From Geitlerinema sp. PCC 7407 (GTDB lineage: Bacteria; Cyanobacteriota; Cyanobacteriia; PCC-7407), in assembly GCF_000317045.1 (NCBI RefSeq), contig NC_019703.1:4162934-4226933 (forward strand): a stretch of 64,000 nt of DNA. The letters run 5' to 3'. Below the pieces are notes generated by a model that saw only the letters and a list, made by a program, of their open reading frames with translations, was not told where the DNA came from and ran no database searches. Position numbers and translations under genes: made by a program. The first letter of the stretch is position 1, and each line of letters begins with the position of its first letter. Positions 48,005-57,174 of this stretch are shown here, in pieces.

Positions 48005-49126
<1,122 letters not shown>

Positions 49127-50206: not shown

Positions 50207-52585
50207 ATGACTGATGAGGAAGCAATACAGCTTGTTGATTCTGTTTTGGGCGAAAAGCACCTAAACGATATTCAAGAGCAGGTTTTTCGGCAGTGCTGGG
50301 AAGGGCTAAAGTATCCGGAAATCGCCATAGAGCTAGGTTACGACCACGCCTACTTGCGCAGAGTTGGCTGTGAGCTGTGGCGGCTACTCTCAGAGGGCTT
50401 TGGAGAGAAGGTCACAAAAAGTAACTTCCGAGCAGTCCTGAGACGGCATGCAGCAAATAGTGCTTGGGCTGGAGGGAAAACCGCTCAAGAGCCAAAATCC
50501 ATCATTCAAGAGTCTGTGAGCACAGACCCCAATTTCGTCGGACGGGAAGGGGCGATCGCTCAAATCACCTCATTAGCAAGCCAAGGGGCAAAAATCATTA
50601 CGATCTGTGCGCCGGGTGGTGTGGGAAAAACAACGCTGGCTTGGCAGTATCTGAATACCCATGGCTTCGACACAATTTTAGAAATCTGGATGGCGAAGGA
50701 AATCCAGAGCATTAACTCCGTAGAGAGCGAGGTAGAGCGCTGGATTCAGCAAAATTTTGGAGAGGAGCCTGGACGAGACTTTGGGGTCAATCTAGAGCGA
50801 CTACGACAAAAGCTGCGTGCCCCAAACCAGCGCATTGGCATTTTGATCGACAACTTGGAGCCTGCCCTCGATAAAAATGGCAGATTCATTGAAAATCGTC
50901 GGCCTTACGTTGATCTACTGCGGGTGTTGGCTGATCCAGGAGCGCGATCGCTCACCCTGATTACTAGTCGCGAGCGCTTGTGTGAACCATCTGTCGAAAT
51001 TAGAGACTATCGCTTAGAAGGACTCGACGAAACCACATGGCAAGAGTTTTTTAGCAGTCGTGATATTAAAACCAATACATCTGCTTTAAAGGAAATGCAT
51101 CATGCCTATGGCGGCAATGCCAAAGCAATGCAAATTCTTAGTAGTGCCATTCAAATTGACTTTGATGGCAATTTAGAAAATTTTTGGCAGCTTAATCAAG
51201 CCAATTTGTTGCTTAATCCAACTTTGGAAAACTTAGTTTCCGAACAATTTAATCGCTTACAAGAAATTTATCCAGAAACATATAAATTACTTTATCGCTT
51301 AGGATGCTTTCGTTATCAAGATATACCTACCATCTCAATAGATGCTGTTATCCATTTACTCTGGGACATAGAAGAGTCACAGAAAAAGAGAGTGCTTCAA
51401 GATCTACAATCTCGTGCTTTGATTGAGACGAAGAATTATGAGTATTGGCTACATCCAGTGATTAGATCAGAAGCAATCAGAAGATTGAGAACCAAAGAAG
51501 AATGGATGGAAGTCAACTGTAGAGCATCAAATTTTTGGACAAAAAGCATTTTGTCAGTTGAATCTACAAAAGATGCATTAATTGCTCTTGAGGCTTATTA
51601 TCACTATCTTGAGATCAACGATTTTGAGAAAGCATGTATTGTTCTCACAACTGAGAGAAATAATAAATTATCGAAAAGATCGCCTCTTGGCATTTCCTTG
51701 TGTAGGCTTGGATTAATAAAACAAATAAATTCTTTAATTCACAAAATAAAAGGAGAGATAAATTTTGGATATCATAAGAGCAAGATATACAATATATTGG
51801 GTGATTCAACATGGATGCTAGGCAGCATCCATGAAGCAATAGAATATCATCAAATGTCAGGAGAGATAGCTAAAATATATTTAAATAATTCATCAAGTCT
51901 AGAACATGAAATTGAGCTAAAAACTTATGGATTAAAGCTGACCTCTCTCATTAATATAGGTTTATGTAAGATAGACTTATGGGAATTAGAAGAGGCCATA
52001 AATTACTTTGAAAAATGTCTTTCACTTGTGGATAATTTTAATTATCGCAAAGAGAGATATACAGAGACATCTTTCTTCTGCTTAGCATTTCTAAATTCAT
52101 GCATCAGCGCTAAAGATAAATCATTATATTTTTTAAATAAGGTTCAAGCAGAAGAAACAAATTTATCAGAATGGGCCACAGGATATAAATTTATATATCT
52201 AAGCTTAACCTATAAAAATTTAGGATATACCCAAAAGGCGCTAGAAGGTTATCAAAATGCTATTTTCTTTGCCGACGAAAATATTTATCCTCAAGTCAAA
52301 GCAAAATCTTTAATTGGATTATCAGAAATTTATCGTCAGAATCAAAAATTTTTAGAGGCCATCAATAGCCATTTAGAGTCCATTCAAATTCTAGAGTTTA
52401 TTGGAGCCAAATGCGATTTGGGCGAAGCTTATTATCAGCTTGGTTTAACGTATCAAGGCATGGGCAAAATCACAAAAGGGCTGGAATATCGTGATAAAGC
52501 AATTAAGATATTTAAGGAAATGGGAGCACCAAGGCAAGTAGAGCGGGTGATATTGGCCTTCAAGGATGCAGAGAAGCAGAAGTAG
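50207..52585 (+). CDS. NB-ARC/STAND ATPase with N-terminal HTH-like domain and TPR repeats
   Basis: A 792-residue NLR-like protein. Residues 1-85 are a cyanobacterial N-terminal helix-turn-helix-like domain (LNDIQEQVFRQCWEGLKYPE, EIAIELGYDHAYLRRVGCEL, LWRLLSEGFGEKVTKSNFRA), as found in front of many cyanobacterial NB-ARC and WD40 proteins. The NB-ARC core has FVGREGAI, Walker A ITICAPGGVGKTTLAW (about 140), Walker B IGILIDNLEPALD (about 220) and the sensor arginine in LTLITSRERL. A winged-helix segment (GCFRYQDIPTISIDAVIHLL) follows. The last 350 residues are TPR-like (NIGLCKIDLWELEEAINYFE, YYQLGLTYQGMGKITKGLEY). STAND proteins act as threat sensors; no separate effector domain is evident. 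The 3' half is much more AT-rich than the 5' half. Confidence 0.85.
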   Translation: MTDEEAIQLVDSVLGEKHLNDIQEQVFRQCWEGLKYPEIAIELGYDHAYLRRVGCELWRLLSEGFGEKVTKSNFRAVLRRHAANSAWAGGKTAQEPKSIIQESVSTDPNFVGREGAIAQITSLASQGAKIITICAPGGVGKTTLAWQYLNTHGFDTILEIWMAKEIQSINSVESEVERWIQQNFGEEPGRDFGVNLERLRQKLRAPNQRIGILIDNLEPALDKNGRFIENRRPYVDLLRVLADPGARSLTLITSRERLCEPSVEIRDYRLEGLDETTWQEFFSSRDIKTNTSALKEMHHAYGGNAKAMQILSSAIQIDFDGNLENFWQLNQANLLLNPTLENLVSEQFNRLQEIYPETYKLLYRLGCFRYQDIPTISIDAVIHLLWDIEESQKKRVLQDLQSRALIETKNYEYWLHPVIRSEAIRRLRTKEEWMEVNCRASNFWTKSILSVESTKDALIALEAYYHYLEINDFEKACIVLTTERNNKLSKRSPLGISLCRLGLIKQINSLIHKIKGEINFGYHKSKIYNILGDSTWMLGSIHEAIEYHQMSGEIAKIYLNNSSSLEHEIELKTYGLKLTSLINIGLCKIDLWELEEAINYFEKCLSLVDNFNYRKERYTETSFFCLAFLNSCISAKDKSLYFLNKVQAEETNLSEWATGYKFIYLSLTYKNLGYTQKALEGYQNAIFFADENIYPQVKAKSLIGLSEIYRQNQKFLEAINSHLESIQILEFIGAKCDLGEAYYQLGLTYQGMGKITKGLEYRDKAIKIFKEMGAPRQVERVILAFKDAEKQK

Positions 52586-53121: not shown

Positions 53122-54573
53122 CTAGAGCGGGGCTTTTGCTGGGAGTTCGATCACGAGATCTCGCAGGAAATAAAAGCGATCGCCCTCTCGACCCACATAT
53201 CCCGCCAGAGGCGACGAAAGCTCAATCAACAGCTCATAAACTTGCTGATCGTTTAACGGGCGGCCTGTTTCCCTCGCGAAGGCAGCGTTGTAATGGGCCT
53301 TTACTTCTAAAGCTGGAAAGGCTTTTTTCTCGAATTTTTCTAGTTCTTTGATAGAGGCAACTATGTGCGATCGCAATTGAAGCCGCTCTAGAATTTCATT
53401 AATATAGGCCTGAATTGCTTCATCGCTTTGGCCAAAATTCAATTTATTTTTTAGCTCAACCAAGTTGACTGAGCCAGGATAGTTTTGATGAAGCTTGACC
53501 AACTGCTGTAGAGACATGGGATGAATAATTGAAATCTTAGAAATAAGGGCTGATTGCTTTAGGTTTTTTGTTGGCTTACCAGGCCCAATGATCAGCCGAA
53601 CAGCCTCTAAATATCGCCCCTCTAAGTGGCGCTTACCAATTCGATCAAGCTCTTCAGCCGTTTGATCGGGAATGGTTTTACCAGATTTGCACTCCACCGC
53701 CATGGGATAGGGAGCAGAGCAGAACAGATCCAGTCCTCCAGCACCACCCCGATAGGCTTCATCGAGCCGGAAGCCCAAAAAATCTAGACTCTGTCGGACA
53801 ATATTTTCAAAGTCAGTACCTGCCTGGTAGTTACTTTTTTTCTGCTTATTTTCGAGGCTGCGATCGCCCAACGCGACGATGAGATCTGCCCAGTTTTCTT
53901 CTGGGCTTGCTGGCGATTGCTCAAGCGGAGACCAGCCCAGGAAATCACGAATTTTGATAATTAGCGAATCTGTTTCTGAGGCCACTGATTGAGTGGTCAT
54001 CAGAGCGTCGTGAATCCCTGCGATCGCCGTGTGGTCTGGTTGCGATCGCTCTTTGATACGCTGGCAACGCTCCGCAAAAGCCTCTTGAGATAAAACGCTC
54101 TGGCTTTCGTCGATTTTGATGGGATGTGCTAGAGGTACGAACTTTCCATTTTTTGTTTCATTGACTTCATAGCGATCTGGCGATCGAAACAGGCGTAAAT
54201 AAGCCCAGAAAACAGGTTTTAGGTTCGCCAGGCGGGCTTGAAATTCAGTCTGGTTCCAAGCAGTCCAGGCAAAAAGTTGGTGAGCCCCAATCTCCGCAGG
54301 GTCGACCACTTGGCACGCATCACACTGCGCCCACAAATGCCCCACCGACTCAGCCTGAAACTTCTTGAATTCAGCGCTTTGCGCCATTGCCAAAAGACCG
54401 GGCTGATACCCATTTGCCTGGTCGAAATCTGGTATCTCTTGGCTAACTGGATGAATCGCAAAGCATCTGCCTGGACTAATAAAAATTCCAGGCAGAGCAA
54501 CGATTATACGGCCCTGAGCAAGGGAAAAAATTTCCAATAGTGGTAGACACAGGGCTGAATCAATGGAAGGCAT
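53122..54573 (-). CDS. DUF1802-like protein with PD-(D/E)XK nuclease domain
   Basis: A 483-residue protein, third gene of a minus-strand operon. Its first 160 residues resemble DUF1802 (ESVGHLWAQCDACQVVD, LKPVFWAYLRLFRSP). Residues about 240-340 form a restriction-endonuclease-like fold: GTDFENIVRQSLDFLGFRLD (helix Glu), RGGAGGLDLFCSAPYPMAVE (Asp of the active site) and AVECKSGKTI (E-x-K). This is a textbook PD-(D/E)XK core of the Mrr/Holliday-junction type. The C-terminal region (about 345-483) is alpha/beta with no recognised motif. It starts 15 bases after the ATPase gene ends. Three HIP1 octamers occur in it. I infer a DNA-cleaving effector for the ATPase. Confidence 0.8.
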   Translation of the reverse strand: MPSIDSALCLPLLEIFSLAQGRIIVALPGIFISPGRCFAIHPVSQEIPDFDQANGYQPGLLAMAQSAEFKKFQAESVGHLWAQCDACQVVDPAEIGAHQLFAWTAWNQTEFQARLANLKPVFWAYLRLFRSPDRYEVNETKNGKFVPLAHPIKIDESQSVLSQEAFAERCQRIKERSQPDHTAIAGIHDALMTTQSVASETDSLIIKIRDFLGWSPLEQSPASPEENWADLIVALGDRSLENKQKKSNYQAGTDFENIVRQSLDFLGFRLDEAYRGGAGGLDLFCSAPYPMAVECKSGKTIPDQTAEELDRIGKRHLEGRYLEAVRLIIGPGKPTKNLKQSALISKISIIHPMSLQQLVKLHQNYPGSVNLVELKNKLNFGQSDEAIQAYINEILERLQLRSHIVASIKELEKFEKKAFPALEVKAHYNAAFARETGRPLNDQQVYELLIELSSPLAGYVGREGDRFYFLRDLVIELPAKAPL

Positions 54574-54588
54574 TTAGGATGCTACTAA

Positions 54589-56490
54589 CTAGATAAACGT
54601 CAAACCCGAGTCATCAGACTCATCCGAATCGTCACTGCTAGGGAAACTGATAAGCATTTCATCCGGTGATAAACCCTCAGGCAACTCACCCGATGGCTTG
54701 CTCATAATTTCTTTAATCAAGGGATTCTTTTCAAGAGTTTGATTCTGCTCAAGAAACGCTTTTAGTTCTTCTGGCAGCACTTCGTATTCAGCAGCTGAGT
54801 TTCTAATCAAGCAGGCTGCCACTAGGGGCTTTAAGTCTTGCTCTTGTAGCGAAACCCACTCACCTCCTAATTCATAGCGAAGCTTTTGAACAATAGCGTA
54901 AGCAGACCAGCTTGAATTAATTTCCTTCGATCGCAATAGACAACCTCGGGTCAAGCCAAACTTTTCATAATTTATCAGCCTTTTCAAACCTGCTGTTACA
55001 GATTGCCAGCTAGACTCTTGGCGGATTGAAATGCCAATGACAATCTTTTGTCCCTCTTCTTCTCCGACAATCTTGAAGTTGATGTATCCGTTGTTTTCTT
55101 TAGCAGGCTCTACTTTCTCGACGTCAGTAATTTTCACCCCTTCAATTGTCTTACTCACAAGCTCTGAGAATGAAAAACGTAAAGCTTCATCTAACAAATC
55201 AACATCATCTAACAGATCGACTTTTTGGTCATTTATCAACTTAGTGAAGATGTCTTCAACCTTTGTTTTTTCTATCAAAGGATCAGGTTCAACAATGATA
55301 TCAGGAGAAATATGCCAGTTTTGCTGACACCATTTCAGCATTTTTCGAACAGTGGGTCGCTCTTGTCCAATCTCTCTGAGTTGAGATTCTTCGAAAGGGA
55401 AAAGAGGGGTAGGAGGATTGATACCTTTCTCGGCATAAAACTCTTGCAGCCAAAGTTTGACTAGATCAACGACAGAGTTTTCATTTAGGTAGTTCAGACG
55501 AATGATATCTCCATGAGAGGAAACGCGATCGGCGATTCCAGAGCCTGTACTTAAGGCCAGGATTTGCTCTTTCCAAGTTGCAGGCATCATGACGGTCAGA
55601 ATGATGCCCTTAGTCAAGTTATCGAAGAGATCTTTTACAAGCTGACTTACAATTTGAGCTTTGGAGTATCCACTATCATCACAGCCTGTACCGTCAATTT
55701 CATCAAAACAAATAACTAGTTCTCGATAATGGCCAATAAAATCGATCAGTTGACGCACTACATCGAAGGTTTGCTGTTCTCTCTCCTCTCTATCAAGATT
55801 GGGCAAAACTAGGCGATCAGCGATTTTCTCAGCTAGATCTTTACCGGAAAGCCACTTCATCGCGTAGGAGCAATCATTTGACAATGTCAAAAGGATCGCG
55901 CGAATAATATCTGGATCAAGACCCTGAAGACCGAGCTGCCTTGCTGCCGTAACCAAGTTATCCAAAAGAGATGGATTCTTTGGTATTGTTTTCGAAAACA
56001 TTTCGAAAACCTTTGGATATGTCTCTGGCAATTTAACTTTAGGGTATTTAACTCTGCAAATATCCTTTAGGAGCAGAACTGCTAATTCTTGCCATTGAGA
56101 GACCTCCTCGCTACCAGTTTGCATCAAGCTCTCTGAGAGAATTTGTTGAAACTGATATTTAATTCGACTTAAGTCACTGAATTTACCAAAAGATGCATAA
56201 ACAAAGATTGTCCCCCCCTGCTTTTGAATTTGATGGTGAATGCGGCTGATTACATGGCTTTTGCCAACACCTGGTTCAGCCGAAAACACGATAGAAGTTT
56301 TAGCGCATTGGCCATTTCTGCTGTTTTCGATAGCTTTTAGAACTGCGTCAGACGCGTGGGCGTTGTGAGACTGTAAGTCTGGAAATCCTTTGCCCCAGAC
56401 ATCTTGATTGGTGACAACTGGCGATCGACTGAAAGGGTTGGCAGATTTGAGGACACAAATCATCTCAGCCGAGAGGGTATTAGCGTTCAT
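54589..56490 (-). CDS. Large P-loop (AAA/ORC-like) ATPase
   Basis: A 633-residue protein, second gene of the operon. The N-terminus (NPFSRSPVVTNQDVWGKGFP) precedes Walker A in TSIVFSAEPGVGKSHVISRI (about 70-78). Walker B is ELVICFDEIDGTG (about 259-265). A sensor-like region, GIILTVMMPATWKEQI, follows, then a winged-helix-like stretch (PTVRKMLKWCQQNW). Residues about 450-590 form an alpha/beta domain with KIVIGISIRQESSWQSVTAG and LTRGCLLRSKEINSSWSAYA, possibly a degenerate nuclease-like fold (inference). The tail is acidic (SFPSSDDSDESDDSG). I saw no HIP1 in the gene, although both operon neighbours have it; the composition is AT-richer. The function is unknown; ORC-like ATPases with nucleases are frequent in mobile defence loci. 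Confidence 0.75.
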   Translation of the reverse strand: MNANTLSAEMICVLKSANPFSRSPVVTNQDVWGKGFPDLQSHNAHASDAVLKAIENSRNGQCAKTSIVFSAEPGVGKSHVISRIHHQIQKQGGTIFVYASFGKFSDLSRIKYQFQQILSESLMQTGSEEVSQWQELAVLLLKDICRVKYPKVKLPETYPKVFEMFSKTIPKNPSLLDNLVTAARQLGLQGLDPDIIRAILLTLSNDCSYAMKWLSGKDLAEKIADRLVLPNLDREEREQQTFDVVRQLIDFIGHYRELVICFDEIDGTGCDDSGYSKAQIVSQLVKDLFDNLTKGIILTVMMPATWKEQILALSTGSGIADRVSSHGDIIRLNYLNENSVVDLVKLWLQEFYAEKGINPPTPLFPFEESQLREIGQERPTVRKMLKWCQQNWHISPDIIVEPDPLIEKTKVEDIFTKLINDQKVDLLDDVDLLDEALRFSFSELVSKTIEGVKITDVEKVEPAKENNGYINFKIVGEEEGQKIVIGISIRQESSWQSVTAGLKRLINYEKFGLTRGCLLRSKEINSSWSAYAIVQKLRYELGGEWVSLQEQDLKPLVAACLIRNSAAEYEVLPEELKAFLEQNQTLEKNPLIKEIMSKPSGELPEGLSPDEMLISFPSSDDSDESDDSGLTFI

Positions 56491-56523
56491 TACTATCCAA
56501 AAGCAGAGGGTTGACAGGAGCGA

Positions 56524-57174
56524 TTAGTAGAGGCGTTGCACGTAGAGTCTTAGGCCGCTGAGCTTGGTACTGATGGAGTCTTCGACCTTGTCCGGGGTGA
56601 GGTCGAGCATTTCTCCGCCCACCAGCTGGAAGAGGTCCTCGGTTTGCATTTTGAGCACCCACTCGTTGAAGTCAGAGCGAGAGACGCGATCGCCCATTTC
56701 GCGGCGGAGGCGGTAGATGGGGACGAGGTCCTCTAGGTTGTAGTCGCGGTTGAGGCGATCGTAGGTTTCGAGAGCTGCCTGCTTGAAGGCGTCGTAGGAG
56801 GCGATCGCGTCGACCGGGGTCTGGGCAGCCGCTGGGCTCGCGCCAGCTTCGCGGATCAGCTGTAGCAGCGTATTGGCCGTGTTTTTGCCGACCTGGGCCG
56901 AAAAGGAGAAGTTGGAGCGCAAACTGGCCAGCAGCGCGTCGCGAACCACGTCGCGTTGAGGCGTGAGCTTGCGCTTCTGGACATCAACAAAGGCGATCGC
57001 GCTTTTTTTCTCTAGTTCGTCGATAAATTTTTGATAGTCGCCAGATTTCTCACCTTTTCTGACAATTTTTCGATTCAGATCGCCGCGCTTTACCTCGGGA
57101 TTTGCCGTGCCCAATTCCCAGAGCGCCAACAGCAGACGCACCTTGGCATCAACATCTGAGCCTTTCAGAGCCAT
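56524..57174 (-). CDS. Putative winged-helix protein, first gene of the ATPase-nuclease operon
   Basis: A 216-residue protein. ATG 57174 (MALKGSDVDAKVRLLLALWE) is chosen over the TTG at 57183; AGGA lies 9 bases upstream. The first 75 residues look like a winged helix: VRLLLALWELGTANPEVKRG, LNRKIVRKGEKSGDYQKFID, ELEKKSAIAFVDVQKRKLTP. A second, similar unit may be at the C-terminus (SRSDFNEWVLKMQTEDLFQL, VGGEMLDLTPDKVEDSISTK). No catalytic motif is seen. It lies 33 bases upstream of the ATPase gene, same strand. It is HIP1-rich and GC-rich, unlike the ATPase. It could be the DNA-binding or regulatory subunit. Confidence 0.65.
   Translation of the reverse strand: MALKGSDVDAKVRLLLALWELGTANPEVKRGDLNRKIVRKGEKSGDYQKFIDELEKKSAIAFVDVQKRKLTPQRDVVRDALLASLRSNFSFSAQVGKNTANTLLQLIREAGASPAAAQTPVDAIASYDAFKQAALETYDRLNRDYNLEDLVPIYRLRREMGDRVSRSDFNEWVLKMQTEDLFQLVGGEMLDLTPDKVEDSISTKLSGLRLYVQRLY

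Follow-up and report, generated by a model that had tools for sequence, protein, structure and literature searches.

The window, by which we mean the entire 64,000-nucleotide stretch of Geitlerinema sp. PCC 7407 DNA analyzed here, contains a cassette of three minus-strand open reading frames, A, B, and C, separated by gaps of 33 bases (A/B) and 15 bases (B/C) (Table 1). These coordinates agree with those of an earlier reading made without database searches (the sequence-only reading), which had described the three genes as an operon. The convergent neighbor of gene C encodes a 792-aa STAND-like NTPase with C-terminal TPR repeats (50207-52585, plus strand, GC 39%), which is possibly another conflict-related gene.

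Table 1. Genes, domains, and conserved residues of the A-B-C cassette (positions in the window)
Feature	Position	Strand	Remarks
Gene A	56524..57174	-	216 aa counted from ATG; alternative TTG start 9 nt upstream possible
A residues 1-160, constant framework segment tracking the chromosome	56695..57174	-	rho 0.58-0.66 with flanking genes
A residues 161-216, co-exchanged with B	56527..56694	-	rho 0.6-0.75 with B blocks, 0.18 with flanks; AMI 0.56 with B type
Gene B	54589..56490	-	633 aa; Orc/Cdc6-like AAA+ ATPase and C-terminal, probably REase-like domain
B Walker A AEPGVGKS, residues 71-78	56257..56280	-	G74, G76, K77 invariant (36/36)
B Walker B VICFDE, residues 259-264	55699..55716	-	F262, D263 invariant (36/36); E264 in 28/36
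B residues 450-525, alpha/beta domain	54916..55143	-	order in model strand-strand-strand-helix-strand
Gene C	53122..54573	-	483 aa; DUF1802, PD-(D/E)XK nuclease, and tail
C residues 7-171, DUF1802 domain	54061..54555	-	PF08819, E=4.7e-13; in 33/33 members
C residues 248-365, PD-(D/E)XK (Mrr-type) nuclease core	53479..53832	-	Mrr_cat in 21/33 members, best E=5e-5
C E256	53806-53808	-	invariant (75/75)
C D282	53728-53730	-	invariant (75/75)
C catalytic E294-C295-K296	53686..53694	-	E294, K296 invariant (75/75)
C residues 401-475, exchangeable tail	53149..53373	-	ends in conserved ELSSPLxGY; helix-helix-strand-strand in model

The product of gene B had been described as a large P-loop ATPase with Walker A and B motifs. 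Both motifs are confirmed by their invariant residues in 36 aligned sequences, and the assignment can be refined to an Orc/Cdc6-like ATPase with a probable dead nuclease-like domain. The protein matches AAA_16 (E=7.8e-10), and its structural model (pLDDT 87) together with the alignment places it in the Orc/Cdc6 clade of AAA+ ATPases with the Walker motifs intact. A Foldseek search with the whole model retrieved Cdc6/Orc1, TnsC, and BrxC (9zdx, 9zll), and also listed MspJI and EcoT38I. The latter two matches and the order of strands and helix in residues 450-525, where the 36 aligned sequences have no E-x-K in common, suggest that the C-terminal domain is probably an inactivated REase-like fold. 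A phmmer comparison of B with PDB sequences gave nothing useful, a PDB profile search returned generic P-loop matches only, and profile-profile comparison of B with C found no relation.

The description of C as a DUF1802-like nuclease holds for the PD-(D/E)XK nuclease, while DUF1802 proved to be a separate N-terminal domain. The motifs FE, GLDLF, and VECKSG reported earlier are all present, and with their acidic residues and lysine invariant in the 75 homologs the active site appears intact and is predicted to be active. The structural model of C (pLDDT 84) gave weak yet coherent Foldseek matches: as a whole, it retrieved CXorf40A, TRIP4, a Zymomonas ASCH protein, and YqfB on the ASCH side (weak, E of at least 0.02), and NucS/EndoMS, MspJI (the top match, weak), PspGI, and AF1548 on the nuclease side. 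Judging by secondary structure, DUF1802 would account for the ASCH matches and residues 248-365 for the nuclease matches. An ASCH/PUA-like fold is accordingly predicted for DUF1802 from these weak whole-model matches and the description of such fusions in PMC10853773 (Rakesh, Aravind & Krishnan 2024). The tail of C may be a winged helix, as its modeled topology suggests. Neither a phmmer comparison of C with PDB sequences nor a PDB profile search with C gave a useful match.

Gene A, regarded in the sequence-only reading as winged-helix-like, probably encodes a winged-helix protein with two domains, as indicated by weak recurrent matches. A domain search with the window protein found no family match; among family members, DUF6293_C was matched in 8 of 35 and SelB-wing_2 in 6 of 35, and a PDB profile search yielded a weak match to eS10, which we take to have the winged-helix fold. 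Profile-profile comparison of A with C found no relation.

Base composition within the window is heterogeneous. The HIP1 element (GCGATCGC) occurs three times in A and five times in C and is absent from B, for which a zero count has p ~0.006 at the window-wide rate. An ordinary neighboring gene (48005-49126) is likewise free of HIP1, and thus its absence from B is weak evidence alone and was dropped as sole evidence. The mosaic assembly proposed earlier on the basis of HIP1 finds a stronger argument in GC3, which is 74-80% in codons 51-216 of A, 33-50% in B, and 35-52% in C; this contrast is consistent with A being an older resident and B and C being acquired later. The window cassette belongs to a lineage other than Nostocales; its mosaicism was judged by composition, and the breakpoints were mapped in Nostocales, where module exchange (see below) further bears out a mosaic.

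A search with B over 386 cyanobacterial genomes gave a match in 68. In 50 of the 56 retrieved regions A, B, and C are direct neighbors that keep this order and share a strand; five of the remaining six contain a relative of B alone, and one contains A and B with no C within its 9 kb. A scan of genome contigs with the single protein B gave no match, and an alignment-based scan with C over 84,980 prokaryote genomes succeeded, finding 247 relatives. The best 80 of these 247 are all cyanobacterial, and 77 of the 80 belong to complete ABC cassettes, A not being visible in the other three loci because B sits at a contig end. The expectation that the three genes travel together is thus borne out in both sets, and the fixed gene order across cyanobacteria argues for co-occurrence beyond chance. 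No copy of B was found in viral contigs or in PLSDB plasmids, and no copy of C in phage records.

Relatives of B without A or C lie at L073:8285-10195, L074:7565-9475, L075:8563-10473, and L076:8861-10771, in a conserved neighborhood beside a von Willebrand-like gene, and may represent a domesticated paralog. Larger proteins of 1075-1181 aa at L094:3871-7134, L095:3447-6992, and L096:3375-6602 show tblastn similarity to residues 468-617 of B only (E 5e-5 to 9e-4), and the full B profile did not confirm them at E 0.01.

In Nostocales the cassette occupies a single facultative site, with ndhO and mdh on one side and pgi on the other; ndhO is the name that we give, by assumption, to a flanking protein of 71 aa. 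The site is surrounded by the housekeeping genes mraY, mutM, mdh, and pgi. A match to B at E<1e-100 is present in 106 of 145 sampled Nostocaceae genomes (~73%). Among 12 genomes without any match, two (G024 and G472) have mdh-pgi spacings of 2.3 and 3.3 kb with no C there, and in a third (G249) 29 residues of the C tail survive as a relic in the pgi-mdh interval (G249:C1:1565460-1565546). These empty sites and the relic show that the site is facultative and that cassettes have been lost. Outside this site, the genomic context of the cassette varies widely among other lineages, and the neighbors of non-syntenic copies include few recognized defense genes, with no defense-island enrichment seen in a survey made without background control. 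Just downstream of C in several Nostocales (L038, L077, L082, L085, and others) we observed pairs of small genes (~105 and ~120 aa) with one, two, or three copies in tandem, for which no Pfam match was found.

A distant sister cassette, A'-B'-C', was detected at L088:2077-7324, L090:1587-7257, L091:4873-10470, L092:1654-7192, and L098:2003-7052. It has the same gene order, and A' and B' are homologous to A (profile E 2e-8 to 4e-14) and B (E 1e-34 to 2e-44), respectively. C' is a single polypeptide of 670-885 aa that is unrelated to C, lacks DUF1802, and combines a DEDD exonuclease (absent in L098 and partial in L088), a PD-(D/E)XK domain (PDDEXK_1), and an FtsK part matching SspH (E ~1e-60 to 1e-69). 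L089 was excluded as a full sister cassette, since its third gene encodes an unrelated ABC transporter.

Comparison of Nostocales loci revealed that different parts of the cassette have different histories. In 20 loci at the ndhO/mdh-pgi site, the median pairwise identity is 82-87% for the flanks, 62% for A, 45% for B, and 54% for C, and the correlation with flank distance is 0.46-0.76 (rho) for A, 0.13-0.33 for B, and 0.20-0.46 for C. A larger named set comprises 71 loci, 47 of them syntenic; its species overlap in part with the 20-locus set, and some of its genomes are MAGs. In this set residues 1-160 of A and 165-235 of C track the chromosome (rho 0.56-0.66 with flanks), residues 160-216 of A are linked with the whole of B in a single block that shows almost no correlation with the flanks, DUF1802 is linked to B in part, and the nuclease and the tail are nearly independent of everything else. 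The pairwise correlations are non-independent observations; the claim of exchange is carried by the AU tests and by breakpoints in DNA.

Every segment rejected the flank tree in the AU tests, most strongly the B-containing block (delta lnL 4383) and B itself (3670), and least strongly residues 21-160 of A (68, p=0.006); the tree of B is accepted by the joint B-containing block, and vice versa. In individual pairs the DNA-level breakpoints are sharp. Between Trichormus sp. NMC-1 (L117) and Anabaena catenula (L112), DNA identity is 86-99% up to a point ~500 nt into A, drops to 44-67% across B and early C, returns to 90-99% over most of C, falls to 55-73% within the tail, and is 98% downstream. 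In Nostoc sp. MG11 (L115) and Komarekiella (L154), the difference within the cassette is essentially confined to the post-catalytic stretch of the nuclease. A further comparison covered 66 pairs whose flanks share at least 95% identity: residues 21-160 of A and 161-300 of C have a median identity of 0.83-0.95, windows of B fall mostly at 0.3-0.7, residues 301-340 of C are bimodal (~45% of pairs at 0.9 or above and 47% below 0.6), and residues 401-440 of C are variable. Fast clocklike divergence as the sole cause was rejected, since blocks of 90-100% identity alternate abruptly with blocks of ~55-60% within a single pair and the segment trees conflict.

Typing of the 71 loci by average linkage, with thresholds of the analyst's choice, distinguished nine B, five nuclease, and eight tail types, which occur in 38 B/nuclease/tail combinations; single-linkage typing was discarded, as it fused nuclease types. 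Mutual information reaches 0.56 for the pair of A C-terminus and B and 0.41 for B and DUF1802, and is near zero between B and nuclease (0.05) and between nuclease and tail (0.03). Strains with 95-99% identical flanking proteins carry unrelated alleles of B with DUF1802, of the post-catalytic nuclease half, and of the tail, which are exchanged independently between constant islands, and the exchange ends inside genes, close to domain borders. To our knowledge, combinatorial diversification of this kind is so far known chiefly from the specificity subunits of type I restriction systems and from polymorphic toxins. Module exchange at a fixed site is absent from those parts of the PMC10853773 text considered here, and we regard it as new for this class of operons.

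None of the PADLOC and NCBIfam defense models covers A, B, or C, in agreement with the earlier view that the locus is not Gabija, Septu, Lamassu, Wadjet, DISARM, or BREX. Of the PADLOC models, which include these systems as well as Druantia and Zorya, B matched only HerA (E=0.019) and A and C none, and 36 homologs of B gave scattered weak matches. The further claim that no system of this composition has been described does not hold: PMC10853773 outlines, in a single sentence, an operon of an Orc/Cdc6 ATPase, an ASCH-REase fusion, and a DndG-like triple wHTH protein, predicted to act against invaders from genomic context, and places such operons in a 'HerA/FtsK capture' network. It also describes Orc/Cdc6 ATPases in which an inactive REase has been inserted ahead of a C-terminal wHTH; FtsK partners and fusions to a 3'-5' exonuclease occur in some of them. 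By composition alone, the window cassette matches this operon type, and the sister cassette, which we found independently, matches its exonuclease-FtsK form. The Orc/Cdc6 ATPase and the predicted counter-invader role are common to both, and the probable inactive REase domain of B, the predicted ASCH-like domain fused to the nuclease in C, and the probable winged helices of A would be further shared features; however, the partner described there is a triple-wHTH protein, whereas A of the window, probably with two domains, is short for three at 216 aa and its winged-helix matches are weak.

Other known systems resemble the cassette in part. HerA/FtsK capture systems in the strict sense have HerA/FtsK in the operon, whereas an FtsK gene is present only in the sister cassette. 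With BREX the cassette shares the AAA+ type, as the N-terminal AAA+ of BrxC is among the structural matches of B and BrxC is of the ORC/Cdc6 clade (PMC12839542), but the window cassette lacks the PglX methyltransferase and PglZ, B has 633 aa compared with 1200-1300, and BREX models match neither A, B, and C nor the homologs of B. The combination of ATPase, wHTH protein, and nuclease, and the SspH-like FtsK of the sister cassette, recall DndFGH/Ssp, but none of the Dnd/Ssp models gave a match to A, B, or C, and the window cassette has neither FtsK nor helicase. The fusion of a PUA-superfamily reader to a nuclease is a recognized architecture (PMC7897488), and type IV enzymes such as MspJI (the top, weak match of C) and EVE-HNH share it. 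C differs from them in having near-constant Orc-like ATPase and wHTH partners, and a dependence of C on modification would be hypothetical.

With a probability of about 0.6, the cassette is a restriction-type anti-invader complex that diversifies by module exchange. Beyond the composition, conserved co-occurrence, nuclease site, and module exchange described above, we infer its DNA target, modification reading, ATP gating, and defense role. A and the winged-helix parts would bind DNA, and B would assemble on it in an ATP-dependent manner and dock A and C. In C, the ASCH-like DUF1802 domain would recognize some feature of the DNA, for which a base modification is the likeliest candidate and a structure another, and thereby license the Mrr-type PD-(D/E)XK domain to cut. 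Since no methyltransferase was found in the three-gene cassette, self-protection would depend on reading and gating, so that self and non-self would be set by the reader and the ATPase, in a logic like that of type IV enzymes, and not by a protecting mark. Homologous recombination between strains swaps whole modules, namely the A C-terminus with B and DUF1802, the post-catalytic nuclease half, and the tail. The A C-terminus and B probably touch, since they co-vary and are exchanged together, and the nuclease half and the tail, which are free to change, probably face outward, to DNA or to phage inhibitors. More tentatively, each strain may owe its own combination of recognition and cutting parts to a modular immune locus, where the ATPase with its reader, the nuclease half, and the tail act as three separately exchangeable modules that are reshuffled at a fixed site.

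Conserved flanks, divergent B, and combinatorial types form the recombination pattern expected of an arms race. The restriction-type reading is further favored by the fixed gene order, the invariant catalytic residues, the fold matches of B and C, the sister cassette with its SspH-like FtsK part, the presence or absence of the cassette at one site, and the anti-invader assignment in PMC10853773. Against a defense role stand the housekeeping-flanked site, the few defense neighbors, and the lack of copies in the viral, phage, and plasmid records searched; the weak fold assignments of DUF1802 and A also count against the proposed complex. The stable position among housekeeping genes in ~73% of the sampled Nostocaceae, the absence of mobile-element or viral copies from our searches, and the presence of NucS/EndoMS among the fold matches of C would also suit a machine for DNA repair or chromosome processing, with a logic like that of NurA-HerA or NucS, in which the nuclease processes damaged or stalled DNA on which the ATPase has loaded. 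We consider this unlikely, as repair genes are not normally lost in close relatives or wholly replaced between strains with 95-99% identical flanks, and combinatorial exchange is hard to explain without antagonistic selection.

Instead of anti-phage immunity, the cassette could provide a barrier to non-kin DNA arriving by plasmid, conjugation, or natural transformation, or a means of kin recognition, with the module types as compatibility groups. A polymorphic, combinatorial locus at a fixed site does resemble variable specificity loci such as hsdS of type I restriction, and the absence of a methyltransferase from the cassette also favors this explanation, but no delivery or immunity gene was seen beside the cassette, and we rank it after the repair machine among the unlikely ones. 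Highly improbable is a selfish or addictive, homing-like cassette, whose module exchange would be a side effect of gene conversion at the site it cuts. A fixed-site nuclease, frequent exchange, and the tail relic of G249 in a genome without the remainder might be expected of it; however, homing would copy the nuclease together with its flanks, whereas the modules are exchanged independently with ends within genes, and in other lineages the cassette lies in many different contexts.

If the restriction-type anti-invader complex is the correct interpretation, the cassette would be a widespread cyanobacterial defense system, carried by about three-quarters of the sampled Nostocaceae and missed by current detection tools. 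The site between ndhO/mdh and pgi gives a class hitherto known in outline only a concrete genomic anchor. Strains with near-identical flanks that differ only in the ATPase with its reader, in the nuclease half, or in the tail constitute a natural deck of modules, from which the share of each module in target choice or in escape from inhibitors could be read by swapping.
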